Shown piece by piece: positions 18,078 to 39,218 of a stretch of DNA of 39,272 nucleotides. The translations under genes were made by a program, and so were the position numbers. Positions within the stretch are counted from its first letter, which is position 1; every line of letters begins with the position of its first letter. Below the pieces are notes generated by a model that searched no databases, was not told the origin of the DNA, and saw nothing but the letters and a program-made list of their open reading frames with translations. Location of the stretch: positions 1 to 39,272 of the forward strand of contig CAINLW010000059.1 of assembly GCA_903850545.1 (NCBI GenBank), in the 5' to 3' direction. This DNA comes from an uncultured bacterium (GTDB lineage: Bacteria; Patescibacteriota; Minisyncoccia; Phycocordibacterales; GWA1-40-21).

Positions 18078-21000
18078 TTAGTCTGTAACGACTACTGATA
18101 AGTTTACGTTGTATTGAGATGTACTCAAGTTTGCACTACTTGTTATAGCAGTTAGGTCTCCTTCTACATCAACCCATTGGAATGATGTAGCTACGCCCAA
18201 ACCTGTTGTAACCTTGTTAACATCTGTTGTTCCTGAAAGACTTAGTCCATCAGCATAAACATCAAGTGTCTCACCCGTAACATCATATGTTCCTGAGAAC
18301 ACGGCTGTTACTGTTTGACTTGTAATTGCAGAACCCGCTGTTATACCTGTTGCAACAGTAGTACCTGCAGAATTCTTGATATTTACTACAGTTCCTGAAG
18401 CTATTCCAGAACTATTACCAACAACTGCAAAGGTCAAAGGAATTTGTGTAAGTCTTACAAGAGAACCTGTAGAACTTATATTCATTCTTGCAACCAATTT
18501 ATTGTTGATAGCGCCTGTGCCTGGAGTTACTAATGTAACTGTTGGCATACCTGCAACTACGTACATATTGTTTGTAGCATTTGCTGACGTAGGATATGTT
18601 GTTGTTGAAGTATTTCCTGACTTGTACTCAATAGAAACTACTTGAACTCCTACTGGTAGATTTGACTCAACACCTGAATTTGTTGTTGTTCCAACTTTTC
18701 TGTATGAAACTACAACTGGGAATGCTGTACCTGCTAGATTGTTTTGTACTAGGATAGGTGCAGACGTGAAATCAAGAGTTGTTGTTGCATTTGCTTCTGT
18801 AATATCAACTGTCTTTCCACCAAATGTGATAGAAGAGATAGCTGTTGATGTAGAAACTGTCAACTTTACTGAAACTTTCTTTATTTCAACTGGAGCACTT
18901 ACAGCTTTTAATGTAAATGTACCTGCTGCATTTCCTGTAGTATTACCTACAACAAATTTTGTTGCTGGTGAAACTGATGAAAGAGCAATGTTTGCTAGAG
19001 TACCAGAAGTAACAGACATTGTTTGTCCTGTAGCGCTCTGATCTAGATCGATATTGCTGAATTTACCATTTCCAATAACTTGTATTGAAGTAGTTGCTGT
19101 ACCTGATGATATATTGTTTACATCAGCATATACTTTAACTGTTCTTGAAGAATCAGCGGCAATTTCAAAATTACCATTTGGTAATGTGATATTGTTTACT
19201 GATTGTGGATTAACTGGGGTTGAAGCGCCAACACCTGAAATTTCAACTGTTAAGTTTGAAAGATCTGTTGTTGCGATAGTACCACCCAAATTAACTGTAA
19301 TTGATCTAATTATAGCTATTTCTGAAGAATCAGCTTTAACTACGAATGAACCTATCAAGTTCTTTGAAGAACTTGGTAATAGAACGCTGTCTCCATCTGA
19401 AACACTCTTTGTAACTGTCATTCCTGCTCCAACTACTGTCATTTGAGGACCAGTCTTTGCTGATGCTGGAATATTTCTTGTAGCAAATGAATACAAACCT
19501 TGTGTGTTCAATGAAGATGCTGTAAGTGTTCCTGTAACTACTGTATTTACTGCAATGTTTCCAACTAGGTTTTTCATATCAGCTTTCAATTCAAGAGAAA
19601 CTGATGTACCTGCTGGGATTGTGTAATTTACAGTATATGTCTTATCAACACCTAGGTTATCTTGTGTGCTTCCGATTTGCATACCGTTAGCAAACAATGA
19701 AACACTCTTTGTTGTTGTTGAAGTCTTTACTAGGAATGATGATATTTTCATATCTTCACCGTAAGCCTTCATTGTCCATTTACCGATAACAGCTTGTGAT
19801 GATCCAGTAACAATGTTACCAGAAATTAGAGAGGCATCATCTTGGAAGGTAATGTCTCCTTGTGAAACTGTCATTTTAGCTGTTGTAACTGGCTTTCCTG
19901 AAATGTTTGGAGTAACTCCAACATTGTAATTTGAACAGATCAAACCAATATCTGCAGCGTTTTGGATAGAAACTGTAAAGTCTCTAGTTGAACCCTTTAT
20001 AACATCAGCTCTAACTTCAAGATTCTTTGAACCTGTTTCTATTTTATAAGAATAAGCTCCTAGATCAAAAGTCATGTAACCATTTGTATCAATGCCTGCT
20101 GCTGTTGCAACTTGAACTCCACCTACGTAAAGTTTCAAATTTGTTAGTGAATCCATTGGGATTGAACCAACAACTTTAAATGCAGCTCTTGTCAAATAGG
20201 CTGCTTTGTTAGAAACAACCATTGGTGCTGACCAAATTGTGTAATTCAATGTACCTGCTTGAACATTCACAGCCGTAGCTGGAGTTGATGAAGCGGCAGC
20301 TGCAATAGTAACTGCAGCTAATTCACTTGCTGTTGGACTATAAACTGTCATCATTGCGCCACTTACTGGATACAATGCTTGAACTGGAACGTTTGTTAAA
20401 ACGTTAGTTAAAGAAACTCCAACTAACTCGCTACTGGTTAAACCAGAAACTATATCAGCTCTTACTGATATTGTTCTTGATGAACCAGCTGGAACTGTAA
20501 ACAATCCTGTACCAGCATTAAACATTACTTTTCCTGATGAAACTGAAGCTGAATCTGTAAGTCTTACTGCTCCCTCATAAAGATAAACAGCGTTTAATGT
20601 TGAATCTCCTGCAACTCCAATCTTAGACAAAGTTACATTTGTAACAACAGCTGGAACAGCTGATGTATTTTCAAATGTATATTCTGCTAGATTTGCTGCT
20701 GCTTGAGAAGAAAGTAGGGCACCTGCTACAGGTGATGTAGGAGCTAGCGAAACTTTCAAATCTACTCCAGTAACATTTGTACCTGTTGTGGTAGTTGTTG
20801 TTGTAGTAGTTGTTGTAACTGAACCGTTTACTGTTGCTCTTGTTTTAGAACCAAAGTATCCAGCTGCTGGTGTGATTCCTTTTTCCAACTGATATTTTAT
20901 AAGAGCTGCTTTTGTTAAAGAGCCAAAATATCCTGTTGCTGGAGAAATTCCTAGCAAATTTTGTAATGCTGTAACATCAGCACCTTTTGAACCAACTGTA

Positions 21001-21248
21001 AGGTCTGTTGCAAAAGTATAACCTGATGTTGCTGAACCTGTTGTTGTTACTGTTCCTGAAGTTGGTTGTCCATTCAAAGATGCAGTGACGTTAGCAACAG
21101 TTGTTGCATCAGCTCCAAAAGATTGAAGCAATGAAACAATTGCGCTTACTTGAGCAGATGTTAATGCTGCAGCTTGTGCAACGCTTCCACCCACCATTGA
21201 AAGTACCAATGCAAATGATGCAATGATACCAATTAATTTTTTACTCAT
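18078..21248 (-). CDS. large secreted peptidoglycan-binding, S-layer-like protein
   Basis: A 1056-residue exported protein. Residues 1-26 form a signal peptide (positive MSKK, hydrophobic core, AQA cleavage region). A peptidoglycan-binding type 1 domain lies near 82-145, with two GYFG.(L/K)T(K/R)A repeats (TGYFGSLTKAALIKYQ and AGYFGSKTRATV). A Thr-only linker follows, then about 850 residues of repeated beta-rich domains of roughly 100 residues, containing phrases such as AGSSRTISVRADI, TGSKNLEVRADV, ADSSRTVKVYADV and AGTSVSLELKAD. Cysteine is almost absent. This fits an S-layer or major surface protein anchored to the wall. An apparent leader of about 550 nt precedes it, and the region is free of other genes. 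Confidence 0.8.
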   Translation of the reverse strand: MSKKLIGIIASFALVLSMVGGSVAQAAALTSAQVSAIVSLLQSFGADATTVANVTASLNGQPTSGTVTTTGSATSGYTFATDLTVGSKGADVTALQNLLGISPATGYFGSLTKAALIKYQLEKGITPAAGYFGSKTRATVNGSVTTTTTTTTTTTGTNVTGVDLKVSLAPTSPVAGALLSSQAAANLAEYTFENTSAVPAVVTNVTLSKIGVAGDSTLNAVYLYEGAVRLTDSASVSSGKVMFNAGTGLFTVPAGSSRTISVRADIVSGLTSSELVGVSLTNVLTNVPVQALYPVSGAMMTVYSPTASELAAVTIAAAASSTPATAVNVQAGTLNYTIWSAPMVVSNKAAYLTRAAFKVVGSIPMDSLTNLKLYVGGVQVATAAGIDTNGYMTFDLGAYSYKIETGSKNLEVRADVIKGSTRDFTVSIQNAADIGLICSNYNVGVTPNISGKPVTTAKMTVSQGDITFQDDASLISGNIVTGSSQAVIGKWTMKAYGEDMKISSFLVKTSTTTKSVSLFANGMQIGSTQDNLGVDKTYTVNYTIPAGTSVSLELKADMKNLVGNIAVNTVVTGTLTASSLNTQGLYSFATRNIPASAKTGPQMTVVGAGMTVTKSVSDGDSVLLPSSSKNLIGSFVVKADSSEIAIIRSITVNLGGTIATTDLSNLTVEISGVGASTPVNPQSVNNITLPNGNFEIAADSSRTVKVYADVNNISSGTATTSIQVIGNGKFSNIDLDQSATGQTMSVTSGTLANIALSSVSPATKFVVGNTTGNAAGTFTLKAVSAPVEIKKVSVKLTVSTSTAISSITFGGKTVDITEANATTTLDFTSAPILVQNNLAGTAFPVVVSYRKVGTTTNSGVESNLPVGVQVVSIEYKSGNTSTTTYPTSANATNNMYVVAGMPTVTLVTPGTGAINNKLVARMNISSTGSLVRLTQIPLTFAVVGNSSGIASGTVVNIKNSAGTTVATGITAGSAITSQTVTAVFSGTYDVTGETLDVYADGLSLSGTTDVNKVTTGLGVATSFQWVDVEGDLTAITSSANLSTSQYNVNLSVVVTD

Positions 21249-34699: not shown

Positions 34700-35284
34700 T
34701 TATAAATGTGTCTCGTTTAAAGCATTATTTATATCCAAAATAGCCATTTTTTTCTTATTATCAAACCGATTTAAAGTTTCTATTGATAATTCATTGTCTT
34801 TTACAAAGTCTAACAAATCAAAGGATTCTTTAAAATAACCAAGATGATACAAAATTCTGAGTACAGTAATAGTTTCTAAATTTTTAATATTTTGCAAAAC
34901 TAATTCATTTTTTGATAGAAAATTATAAAAAGACTCGACACTAGAATATAGTCCTTCGTTTTTTTCTTCACCATGAAGTAATCTCAAAAGTAAAGAGAAA
35001 ATGTTTTTTACAGTTATAAGTTTATTGGTGTTTTTTATAAAATCCCCTCTTTCTATAGTTTCGACACTGGTTATTCGCCAAACGTGTTTACCTTTTACCA
35101 AAGAAATTTTTATTAAACAAAAATCTTGCAAATGCCCTTTCAGTTTTGATTTATCCAAACGCACGCCTTGTGCCACTGCTTTTATAAAACCCAAATCTTG
35201 AGTAAGCAAGAAATAATATTTATTCGCCTCCCCTATCGGCGAGCTTTTTATAATTATAGCTTTGGTGGTATAGATGTGATGCAT
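34700..35284 (-). CDS. recO: DNA repair protein RecO
   Basis: Helps load RecA on SSB-coated DNA. The N-terminal OB fold is clear (YTTKAIIIKSSPIGEANKYYFLLTQDLGFIKAVAQGVR, in parts), as is the helical middle with LHGEEKNEGLYSSVESF. It is 194 residues against about 240 usually. The C-terminal zinc-finger region is missing and the protein ends shortly after the RILYHLGYF helix. Short RecO forms occur in reduced genomes. The start ATG follows palindromic element copy 3 after two bases. Confidence 0.85.
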   Translation of the reverse strand: MHHIYTTKAIIIKSSPIGEANKYYFLLTQDLGFIKAVAQGVRLDKSKLKGHLQDFCLIKISLVKGKHVWRITSVETIERGDFIKNTNKLITVKNIFSLLLRLLHGEEKNEGLYSSVESFYNFLSKNELVLQNIKNLETITVLRILYHLGYFKESFDLLDFVKDNELSIETLNRFDNKKKMAILDINNALNETHL

Positions 35285-35552: not shown

Positions 35553-38500
35553 CTAGTTTATAACAACTCTTGCTTTCAATCCCTCAAGTTCGATCAATTC
35601 TCCACCTTCCATTTTTTCAAAGCTAATTTCTTTAAGTCCTGTGGTCTTTGAAATTTCATTGTTAAATTTTGTAAAAAATTTCTTGCCAACTTCGTCTGTA
35701 TCAACAACAAGCGTGACTATATCACTTGGATTTAATTTTTTCTCCTTCCTCATTTCCTGAACTGCGCGGACAACATCTCTCATCATTCCCTCTTCTTTTA
35801 ACTCCTTTGTTAGAACTGTATCAAGTTCAACATCTGTTGAAATATTTTGATCAAAAATAATTTCTTTTACATTTACTTCTTCTTTTATTAACGCTGTGTA
35901 CTCATCTGTCAATTTCAACTTTTTACCCGTTAAAGTTTTGACTGACACATTAGACTGGTCGTCTAATGTAAGGAAAACTTCAGGTTTTCCATCAGTCAAA
36001 ATTTTCTCGGGTATACTTTTGACTTTTAGACTACTTAAGGGTTGTCGGACTTTCATTCCAGCTTTTGCGCGAGCTTCAAGTCCGAGAGATACTGCCAATC
36101 TCGTTTCCTTCATGTTTTCCAAAATTTCGTTTTCCTCTTTGGAAAGTTCGCCAACATATTCTTCCGTCCAATTTTCAAGATGTACACTCTCCTTTTCCAT
36201 TCCGCCAGTTATCTTCAAATATAAATCTTCAGCAAAAAAAGGCATTGAAGGAGCAACGAGTTTAGAAAATTCAAGAATAACAGTTCTTGTAGTAAACATT
36301 GCTGAATGTCGATCTTCTGGATCTTCAGATTTAAATCTGTCACGAGACCTTCTCAAAAACCATGTGGAAACATCATCAACAAAATCTCCAATAGGTCTTG
36401 TGGCTCTATCGAGCTCATTGTTATCTGTAGCTTTTGTGATTTGTGTCGCTGTCTCTTTTAATCTTGCAAGAATCCATTTATCCAAAATATTTTTGGGTTG
36501 TGAATATTTTTCTATCTTATTTAAATCCAAGTCAAAACCACCATACATTTCAAAAAAAGAATAAACATTTTGAAATCTCATAATAATTTTCTTTAAAATT
36601 TCATCTACTCCTTTGTTCGAAAATTTCAAATCTTCTGCTCGCATTGCCGGAGATGATAGTAAATAATACCTCAAAGCATCTGCACTATAACTTGTAACAA
36701 CATCCATAGGGTCAGGATAATTATTCAATCTCTTTGACATTTTTTGTCCATTTTCAGCAAGAACCGTTCCATTTACAATAACACTCTTATATGAAGATTC
36801 TCCAAAAAGAGCGACTGAAAGAACTATCATTGAGTAAAACCATCCTCTTGTCTGATCAACTCCTTCTGCAATAAAATCTGCAGGATATCCGATTCCTTTT
36901 GCCGGATTAAATTTATCTAAATTTTCAAATGGATAGTGAGATTCGGCATAAGGCATCGAACCTGATTCAAACCAACAATCAAAAACTTCTGGAACCCTTT
37001 TCATTTCCCCACCACATTTACATTTCAAAGTGACCTCATCAATAAATGGTCTATGTAAATCAAGTTCGTAATTTCTATTGTGAGGAATTGGTGCAAAAAG
37101 AATTTCTTTTATTTCAGAATTTTCAATAAACGGTTCACCTGCTTTTCTTATAGTTAATGCTTGTTCTGGGGTCATACCAAACACACCAGCAAACATTAAC
37201 CAGATAGGAGTATTATGACCAACAACTAAGATGTTTTTACCTTCATTTTTTTTATCAACATCATACATAAATTCTGTTATCCTGTTTTTAACAGTCATAT
37301 AATTTTCTCCGCCCTTTGGAGTTTTCGTAAATTTTGCTTCTCGAGATTCAAAAAAAGCTTGGTATTCTGCGTCTGATTTGCCATCCATTTCACCCACAAA
37401 TATTTCATGTAATCGTTCATCAAAAATAATTTGATCTTTTGGATAACCGATTTTATCTGCAATTACTTCTGCTGTTTCTTTCGTTCTTAAAAATGGAGAG
37501 CAGTAAATAACATCTATTTTTCCACTTTCTTTTGTAAGTAATTTTGAATCAATAAGTTTTTCTCCAGCTACTTTTGCTTCCTCTTTTCCCTTCTCTGTAA
37601 GATGATGTTTTGTTTTGGGATTTGAACTAAGGATTTTTAAAACATTACCTTCAGACTCCCCATGTCTTACGACAACAAAAGTATTTCTGCCACCAGTTTT
37701 TTCTTTTATATCTTGAATCGAACCAATAAATTCTTTTGTTGGACAACAATTACATCTCCAAACTGGAAGCGGTGCACCCCAAAATCTCGATCTTGATATT
37801 GACCAGTCACGAGCTCCCTCAAGCCACTTTCCAAATCTTCCATCTCCGATTTCCTCCGGAACCCATTTAACTTTTTTGTTTGCCTCCACGAGTTTATCTC
37901 TAAATTTGGTAACTTCAACAAACCATGAGCTCATTGCGTAATTTAAAAGTGGTGTATCACATCTCCAACAATGTGGATATGAGTGAATAAATTTTTCCTT
38001 TGCATAAAGAGTTCCTTTTCCAGCCAAAAACTTTATAACTTCAATGTCAGCAGCCTGAGGATTCTCTTTTGGTTTTACTTTTTCTTCATTAAAATCTTTA
38101 ACTTCTTTTTTGAATCTTCCGTCCATTCCGACATGCTGGATAAAAGGTAGTTTTTTTTCTTTACCAAGATTCATATCATCTTCTCCAAAAGCAGGTGCAA
38201 TATGAACTATTCCCGTACCATCCTCAGTGGTTACAAAGCTGGCATCATATACTTTAAATCCATTTTCTAGGTTTTTTAATTCTGAATTATTATAATAATC
38301 AAAAAGTGGTTTATATGACATTCCAATCAAAGCTTTTCCTGGGATTTTTTCTAAAATCTGATGCGATTCAACAATTGTAGAAAGTCTTGATTCAGCCAAA
38401 ATAAATTTTTCCTCGCTTGCCACGAGGTCAGCAGACTTTTCGTGGACTAGTTTTATTTTTACATAATCAATATCAGGATTTATGGCTAAAGCAACATTTC

Positions 38501-39218
38501 CAGGAAGAGTCCACGGGGTTGTGGTCCACGCCAAGAAAAATGTACCAGGATCTTCAACTAATTCAAATTTTACTGTAACTGAAATATCGGTAATGTCTTT
38601 GTATCCTTGAGCAACTTCAAAATTTGAAAGTGTAGTGCCACAATGAGGGCAAAGATGCATAGATTTAAAACCTTCATAGACTAAACCTTTATTATTTAAT
38701 TCTTTAAATATCCACCAAACTGTTTCGGTATATGATGGGTTCATTGTTCTATAATCATTTTCCATATCAACAAAACGACCCATACGGGGTATAATTTTTT
38801 TCCACTCATCTGCATAGATAAAAACTTTTGTCCTAGCGATATCATTAAATTTCTCCAAACCAAAATCTTCAATGTCTTTTTTTGATTTTAAACCTATTTC
38901 TTGTTCAACTATATTCTCAATCGGAAGACCATGAGTATCCCATCCCCATCTTCTAGCTACATACTTTCCTTTCATCGTCTGGTACCTGCCAACATAATCT
39001 TTCATTGTTCCTGCAAGAATGTGTCCATAATGCGGAAGTCCTGTTGCAAACGGTGGGCCGTCATAAAACACAAATTTACCATTTGGAGCATCTTTTTCCA
39101 AAGTTTTTTTGAAAATCTCTTTTTCTTGCCAAAATTTTAGAATTTCCTCTTCTCTTTCAGCTATTTTACTTTTTACCACAACCTTTTCTTTTTTTTGTTC
39201 TTTATTATCTTCAGTCAT
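35553..39218 (-). CDS. ileS: isoleucyl-tRNA synthetase with inserted histidine-phosphatase domain
   Basis: Class I synthetase charging tRNA-Ile. The HIGH motif is HYGH (in PPFATGLPHYGHILAG), the KMSKS motif is QKMSKRLNN, and the CP1 editing domain keeps TTTPWTLPGN and GTGIVHIAPAFGEDD. Its 1221 residues exceed the family's usual 1000-1050 because of two insertions. One is a whole histidine-phosphatase domain (about 509-713) between the zinc-ribbon halves CNCC and CKCGG. The other is a 30-residue stretch near 1068-1098, encoded by palindromic element copy 4. The synthetase frame is intact through both, so the enzyme should be active. An extended -10 box TGATAATAT lies six bases before the ATG, giving a leaderless mRNA. 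Without the insertions it would be about 986 residues. Confidence 0.95.
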   Translation of the reverse strand: MTEDNKEQKKEKVVVKSKIAEREEEILKFWQEKEIFKKTLEKDAPNGKFVFYDGPPFATGLPHYGHILAGTMKDYVGRYQTMKGKYVARRWGWDTHGLPIENIVEQEIGLKSKKDIEDFGLEKFNDIARTKVFIYADEWKKIIPRMGRFVDMENDYRTMNPSYTETVWWIFKELNNKGLVYEGFKSMHLCPHCGTTLSNFEVAQGYKDITDISVTVKFELVEDPGTFFLAWTTTPWTLPGNVALAINPDIDYVKIKLVHEKSADLVASEEKFILAESRLSTIVESHQILEKIPGKALIGMSYKPLFDYYNNSELKNLENGFKVYDASFVTTEDGTGIVHIAPAFGEDDMNLGKEKKLPFIQHVGMDGRFKKEVKDFNEEKVKPKENPQAADIEVIKFLAGKGTLYAKEKFIHSYPHCWRCDTPLLNYAMSSWFVEVTKFRDKLVEANKKVKWVPEEIGDGRFGKWLEGARDWSISRSRFWGAPLPVWRCNCCPTKEFIGSIQDIKEKTGGRNTFVVVRHGESEGNVLKILSSNPKTKHHLTEKGKEEAKVAGEKLIDSKLLTKESGKIDVIYCSPFLRTKETAEVIADKIGYPKDQIIFDERLHEIFVGEMDGKSDAEYQAFFESREAKFTKTPKGGENYMTVKNRITEFMYDVDKKNEGKNILVVGHNTPIWLMFAGVFGMTPEQALTIRKAGEPFIENSEIKEILFAPIPHNRNYELDLHRPFIDEVTLKCKCGGEMKRVPEVFDCWFESGSMPYAESHYPFENLDKFNPAKGIGYPADFIAEGVDQTRGWFYSMIVLSVALFGESSYKSVIVNGTVLAENGQKMSKRLNNYPDPMDVVTSYSADALRYYLLSSPAMRAEDLKFSNKGVDEILKKIIMRFQNVYSFFEMYGGFDLDLNKIEKYSQPKNILDKWILARLKETATQITKATDNNELDRATRPIGDFVDDVSTWFLRRSRDRFKSEDPEDRHSAMFTTRTVILEFSKLVAPSMPFFAEDLYLKITGGMEKESVHLENWTEEYVGELSKEENEILENMKETRLAVSLGLEARAKAGMKVRQPLSSLKVKSIPEKILTDGKPEVFLTLDDQSNVSVKTLTGKKLKLTDEYTALIKEEVNVKEIIFDQNISTDVELDTVLTKELKEEGMMRDVVRAVQEMRKEKKLNPSDIVTLVVDTDEVGKKFFTKFNNEISKTTGLKEISFEKMEGGELIELEGLKARVVIN
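35925..36012 (-). repeat. ACCCG/CGGGT palindromic element, copy 4, inside ileS
   Basis: The ends match the other copies, but the element lies opposite to the gene: the ileS sense strand reads ACCCGAGAAAATTTT...AAAACTTTAACGGGT. It is 88 bp and contains arms TTGACTGA/TCAGTCAA and two local hairpins, ACATTAGAC/GTCTAATGT and GGAAAA/TTTTCC. The arms are thus nested rather than crossed. It encodes IPEKILTDGKPEV...VKTLTG in frame with ileS. Confidence 0.9.
37080..37692 (-). other. histidine-phosphatase domain inserted in IleRS
   Basis: IleRS residues about 509-713. The RHG motif is Arg518-His519-Gly520 (VVVRHGESEGN). The second Arg is R578 (YCSPFLRTKETAE), the acid/base Glu lies in LHEIFVGEMDG, and the distal His is H668 (VVGHNTPIW). 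All catalytic positions of the phosphoglycerate-mutase-like branch are present, so it looks active. Its substrate is unknown. Confidence 0.9.

Follow-up and report, generated by a model that had tools for sequence, protein, structure and literature searches.

The isoleucyl-tRNA synthetase (IleRS) encoded in the window, which is the whole 39,272-nucleotide stretch of DNA analysed here and comes from the ~0.99 Mb draft genome of an uncultured member of the Patescibacteria, carries a complete histidine phosphatase (HP) domain inside its chain, and this is one case of a much wider pattern. The first-pass annotation of this DNA had caught only this case; its observation is confirmed as real, and its interpretation is partly supported. 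It is quite possible, with confidence falling slightly short of even, that the IleRS and the valyl-tRNA synthetase (ValRS) of Patescibacteria are synthetase-phosphatases, in which a third catalytic centre beside those for synthesis and CP1 editing would dephosphorylate a compound specific to branched-chain charging. Strong selection would then have led the two synthetases to acquire an HP at differing sites on several independent occasions, or to retain one as operon partner.

The synthetase of the window and its inserted domain

The features of the window on which the analysis rests are as follows, with the evidence for each.

35553..39218, minus strand: ileS, IleRS2-like isoleucyl-tRNA synthetase with internal HP (open reading frame, Pfam, NCBIfam TIGR00392, best PDB match P. 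megaterium IleRS2)
39021..39032, minus strand: HIGH-type signature HYGH, residues 63-66 (sequence)
37743..37754, minus strand: zinc-knuckle half 1, C489-x-x-C492 (sequence, cysteine positions)
~37086..37703, minus strand: inserted segment, residues ~506-711, not in any solved IleRS found (alignment to 8c8v, ~206-residue gap in the target)
37152..37676, minus strand: branch-1 HP domain, residues 515-689 (PF00300, E 3.7e-31; AF2 domain model)
37659..37667, minus strand: R518-H519-G520 catalytic motif, with H519 as predicted phosphohistidine nucleophile (R and H in 104/104 same-site inserts)
37485..37487, minus strand: R578, second catalytic Arg (104/104 same-site inserts)
37404..37406, minus strand: E605, acid/base Glu (102/104 same-site inserts)
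37215..37217, minus strand: H668, second catalytic His (104/104 same-site inserts)
37014..37022, minus strand: zinc-knuckle half 2, C733-x-C735, with the PEVFDCWFESGSMP segment after it (sequence, cysteine positions)
36729..36743, minus strand: KMSKR signature, residues 826-830 (sequence; near-invariant in the IleRS alignment)
34700..35284, minus strand: recO-like gene, downstream of ileS (open reading frame; compared with loci L274 and L275)

The ileS frame is open throughout its 1221 codons, and its product scores 858 bits against the NCBIfam ileS equivalog TIGR00392 (cut-off 621.4), a match from which charging of tRNA-Ile is predicted. In Pfam order, tRNA-synt_1 lies on both sides of His_Phos_1 and is followed by Anticodon_1 (913-1062) and DUF5915; the HIGH-type and KMSKS-type signatures, CP1 and the anticodon domain are all present. 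This is the single full-length IleRS match in the genome. Elsewhere in the window, positions 18078-21248 (minus strand) encode a large repeat-rich protein of 1056 residues, probably secreted, whose N-terminal part is peptidoglycan-binding-like.

When the protein is aligned with the IleRS2 of Priestia megaterium (8c8v), residues 1-505 pair with 8c8v up to residue 475, and residues from 712 onward pair with 8c8v from 479 onward; 8c8v thus advances by only ~4 residues across the window's 505-712, and ~206 residues are inserted. The PF00300 (His_Phos_1) score of 108.7 bits, against a gathering score of 21.7, places the domain in branch 1 of the HP superfamily, and the RHG motif, the second Arg, the second His and the acid Glu are all found in it. 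An AF2 model of residues 1-1070 (45 alignment rows) has a mean pLDDT of 90.9 and a pTM of 0.88, so that the synthetase and HP domains are modelled together with confidence, and the HP domain modelled alone (pLDDT 88.6) matches solved HP structures with a best E of 1.8e-12. The nearest solved folds are the phosphoserine phosphatase PspA, PhoE, a CobC-type enzyme and Rv2419c, which points, at the level of the model, to small-molecule phosphomonoesterases.

These results bear out the first-pass annotation on several points. It had described a complete HP domain within IleRS and had placed it between the two halves of a zinc ribbon, the zinc knuckle of CP2 in the present analysis, where C489/C492 indeed precede and C733/C735 follow it in the chain; its numbering of R518, H519, G520, R578 and H668 was correct; and the structure prediction that it suggested as a check gave the confident joint model described above. 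Its statement that the synthetase motifs are intact also holds (HYGH and KMSKR), but the second signature, which it named KMSKS, reads KMSKR.

The persistence of the catalytic residues, claimed at first from one sequence, extends to the orthologues, where both the synthetase and the HP sets are kept. In 104 inserts at the site used in the window, R518, H519, R578 and H668 are invariant and E605 is kept in 102, while G520 is kept in 90 of them and replaced by Ala in the other 14; these inserts retain the core catalytic residues at identities down to ~30%. The R/H/R/H set is also complete in 13/13 and 2/2 of the HP domains at two further IleRS sites (P2 and P4, below), in 5/5 HP genes neighbouring ileS and in 13/14 ValRS domains. 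Pairwise dN/dS of the HP domain among close relatives is ~0.08-0.16, a rough value with synonymous sites near saturation. The sequences show the HP catalytic residues to be under purifying selection.

Recurrence in IleRS, in ValRS and beside ileS

A search for internal His_Phos domains in IleRS, which had also been suggested at the outset, revealed four positions, together with domains in ValRS and separate HP genes next to ileS. The IleRS positions are named P1 to P4, and a single protein may hold up to three HP domains.

P1 (window type), IleRS: CP2 zinc knuckle, between the halves
P2, IleRS: past the second zinc half and ahead of the PEVLDCWFESG segment
P3, IleRS: after WFESGSMPY
P4, IleRS: after KMSKS, before the anticodon domain

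Most members of the Peregrinibacteria-type family f128 have both P1 and P2 domains, and one IleRS (genome G301) has three HP domains. ValRS with an internal HP occurs in 13 genomes from ten families (G421, G282, G378, G288, G103, G062, G250, G402, G419, G422, G301, G105 with two HP domains, and G429); the site mostly precedes DTWFSSG, within the CP2 region, and follows it in G421 and G378. Among the matches listed, every HP-bearing frame longer than 850 residues is an IleRS or a ValRS, and no HP was found in LeuRS or any other synthetase. Among the IleRS put through Pfam, HP was the only domain type recognised at the insertion sites. At the P1 site of one IleRS (L112, G354), between the zinc knuckle and DLHRPYID, there are ~70 extra non-HP residues without a Pfam match, possibly a linker or a remnant.

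The insert lies in an open frame in 55 of 60 relatives, as read from alignment spans; of the other five, two (G031 and G038) clearly lack it, one is truncated where its contig stops, and no match was obtained in the remaining two. The named hits with the insert belong to Nomurabacteria, Yanofskybacteria, Giovannonibacteria, Jorgensenbacteria, Peregrinibacteria and Peribacteria, all of them Patescibacteria. In a profile search of a phylum sample, full-length matches to the insert together with both flanks were found within long frames of at least 56 of 380 genomes, our own count among the matches listed, with weaker matches outside it; many Patescibacteria have an IleRS without HP. No embedded HP was found in 251 Chloroflexota genomes or in 194 from a single archaeal phylum of the DPANN type, to which a Pacearchaeota genome belongs (both at a cut-off of 1e-30, which is weak for divergent inserts), nor in 27 genomes from other, mixed phyla, a set reached through IleRS matches already lacking the insert and so unbiased for ValRS only. 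Judged from these sequences, the recurrence looks restricted to the Patescibacteria lineage. One contig titled Spirochaetia (L171, QYPD01000003.1) has a P1 insert at 44% identity and is probably mislabelled Patescibacteria.

In several genomes, including relatives that lack the insert, the HP is a free gene situated directly or a short way upstream of ileS. The order argS - HP - ileS - recO is found in G331 (L274), where HP and ileS are spaced by 7 bases, and in G405 (L275), and both loci share the ileS-recO order of the window. In a third genome (G388) the order is argS - HP - HD/RelA-like gene - ileS, the gene in between (L276:5045-5548, plus strand) encoding an HD/RelA-like hydrolase. In L198 the HP gene and the start of ileS overlap, and in L219 the order is argS - HP - ileS, with a gap. 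Among six sampled genomes of the same class but outside the order, all lacking the insert, free HP genes near ileS occur in G331, G405 and G388, and G233 has a related HP elsewhere; the neighbour genes were found partly through high scores, and 3/6 is therefore no fair estimate of frequency. With several hundred genes to a genome and only a few of them coding for HP, such adjacency is unlikely to arise by chance.

Free and inserted forms interchange in the HP tree (80 rows): the G331 neighbour gene clusters with P1 inserts from its own class, and the one in G388 joins those of f128 (96/84). The P2 domains of f128 form their own group apart from the P1 domains of that family, the P4 domains form another, and the ValRS domains are scattered over several groups; these placements indicate, in a tree with many weak deep branches, that the HP insertions had several separate origins. 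Tandem duplication was considered as the source of double HP domains and rejected, since P1 and P2 of one family are separate in the tree. In an IleRS tree built with the insert removed, the presence and absence of P1 requires 15 changes; counting supported branches alone, the P1-only group still demands no fewer than 11. Transfer of whole ileS genes can be among the contributors to these changes. The IleRS of L123 (G174) and L275 (G405), one with a P1 insert and the other with a neighbouring HP, cluster in the core tree with the archaeal enzymes, apart from other Patescibacteria.

HP domains also occur outside synthetases in this phylum. A pyruvate kinase-like protein (G422, L165:1594-3033, minus strand) has a C-terminal HP, and there are HP fusions with an MFS-type transporter (G385, L269:2185-4026, minus strand) and with a DedA-type membrane protein (G235, L270:1367-2665, minus strand); other genomes of family f106 have HP-containing frames similar in length to these membrane-protein fusions. 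The fusions to pyruvate kinase, transporter and DedA-type protein imply that HP is mobile within Patescibacteria.

Proposed function and alternative explanations

Based on the results presented above, a catalytically competent small-molecule HP would serve IleRS, and ValRS in other Patescibacteria, whether as part of the same chain or as a separate protein encoded by an adjacent gene. H519 would accept the phosphate, R518, R578 and H668 would bind it, and E605 would act as acid/base; the substrate would be a small phosphomonoester that is made at, or poisons, the site of branched-chain tRNA charging. That the phosphatase is active and acts, in cis or from a gene of the same operon, on a small phosphomonoester linked to the synthesis of Ile- and Val-tRNA is, on the sequence evidence, an evenly balanced judgement. 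As first guesses for the substrate, an adenylate-derived by-product of the editing cycle and a phosphorylated amino-acid-like inhibitor are each improbable at best. Against this reading, the HP function is dispensable or replaceable, because many Patescibacteria have an IleRS without HP and P1 has changed at least 11 to 15 times, and the fusions described above show the domain to be mobile. Hydrolysis of Ap4A or aminoacyl-AMP, put forward in the first-pass annotation, would be a candidate role. Clearance of pyrophosphate, in line with the pyrophosphate-like inhibitors which that annotation also named, is not supported as a replacement for soluble inorganic pyrophosphatase: matches to this enzyme are found in 10/19 insert-bearing and 4/10 insert-lacking genomes, without clear association with the insert.

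The main rival to an active phosphatase tied to charging is that the HP is a passenger, in which the tolerant CP2 loops of IleRS and ValRS host a compact HP doing unrelated housekeeping uncoupled from charging. It is consistent with the HP fusions to other proteins, with the frequent gains and losses of P1, and with several genomes in which the IleRS HP is the only HP among the matches listed and could be the general HP of the cell. Against it, no other domain type was recognised at these sites in the IleRS scanned; the HP is also a free gene beside ileS, and its insertion is repeated at four places in IleRS and also in ValRS, with no other synthetase seen to carry it among the matches listed. 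This explanation is considered unlikely, although it is the strongest of the alternatives.

Less probable still is that the HP dephosphorylates the synthetase itself, phosphoproteins or phosphorylated tRNA ends. Its location on the synthetase would give it access, and some members of the superfamily, such as SixA and PGAM5, act on proteins; however, the nearest folds are small-molecule phosphatases, no kinase partner was identified, and four differing insertion sites do not point to one fixed target. Accessory domains inserted in synthetases are often non-catalytic, and the HP adjoins the catalytic core, so it could instead be a structural or ligand-sensing module; retention of the core catalytic residues in every P1 insert despite the low identities would be unexpected for a dead scaffold, which makes this very unlikely.

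It is highly improbable that the HP supplies the glycolytic phosphoglycerate mutase (PGM). Its best NCBIfam HP-type match is the archaeal dPGM model NF038349, far under the cut-off (91.6 vs 225 bits), as is TIGR01258 (30.9 vs 81.7), so that neither model of 2,3-BPG-dependent PGM is matched above its cut-off. Two genomes (G025 and G054) have enolase and no match to a metalloenzyme PGM, but the genome of the window has a PF01676 metalloenzyme gene adjoining enolase (C55), the expected place of iPGM, two others (G051 and G273) keep the IleRS HP without enolase and without PF01676, and the nearest folds are phosphatases rather than mutases. The rejection fits the window's genome and the latter two, and G025 and G054 remain exceptions. 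An assembly or gene-calling artefact, and with it the fusion of two genes by misassembly against which the first-pass annotation had cautioned, has a negligible probability, given the open frames in the relatives, their recurrence in independently assembled named genomes and the 104 conserved sequences.

Relation to known enzymes

Few enzymes have been studied as thoroughly as the aminoacyl-tRNA synthetases, and we know of no phosphatase activity that belongs to IleRS or ValRS. No description of an HP domain in either was found in the literature, with most subscription journals outside the search. Both domain families are known, and their recurrent, lineage-restricted coupling in IleRS and ValRS looks undescribed. 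That one large bacterial radiation has repeatedly captured an intact phosphatase in two synthetases would indicate that branched-chain charging involves a step, by-product or inhibitor so far overlooked, and it raises the question of which phosphate is removed and whether charging or editing depends on its removal. It suggests that Ile- and Val-tRNA charging in Patescibacteria is linked to a dephosphorylation step that has gone unrecognised, and would show that core translation enzymes have changed unnoticed among uncultured members of this group.

The window's IleRS has all synthetase domains and motifs in common with the IleRS2 or eukaryote-like enzymes of P. megaterium (8c8v), S. cerevisiae (8wnd) and T. 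thermophilus (1ile). The AF2 model matches the P. megaterium and yeast structures with TM-scores of 0.70-0.72, and the Thermus enzyme was also matched, but none of the solved IleRS matched has the ~206-residue HP in the CP2 zinc knuckle. The branch-1 enzymes PspA (4ij5/4ij6), PhoE (1h2e), the CobC-type protein (6e4b) and Rv2419c GpgP (4pz9) share the fold of the HP (TM about 0.65-0.72) and its catalytic RHG...R...E...H arrangement; they are free-standing, whereas the window's HP lies within a synthetase, and the identity of ~20-27% is too low for substrate prediction.

The CP1 editing domain of synthetases is universal and ancient, and hydrolyses misacylated products. In IleRS, ValRS and LeuRS it interrupts the class I core as a catalytic domain, like the HP; unlike CP1, the window-type HP is lineage-restricted, patchy and predicted to be phosphate-directed. 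The editing domain of LeuRS has been reported to be specific to synthetase hosts (PMC13114784). An IleRS with a second catalytic-type domain is likewise represented by the NCBIfam model ileS_w_GNAT (NF040702), which carries a GNAT acetyltransferase whereas the window's protein carries the HP, and against which the latter scores 296.5 bits, far below the cut-off of 1999.
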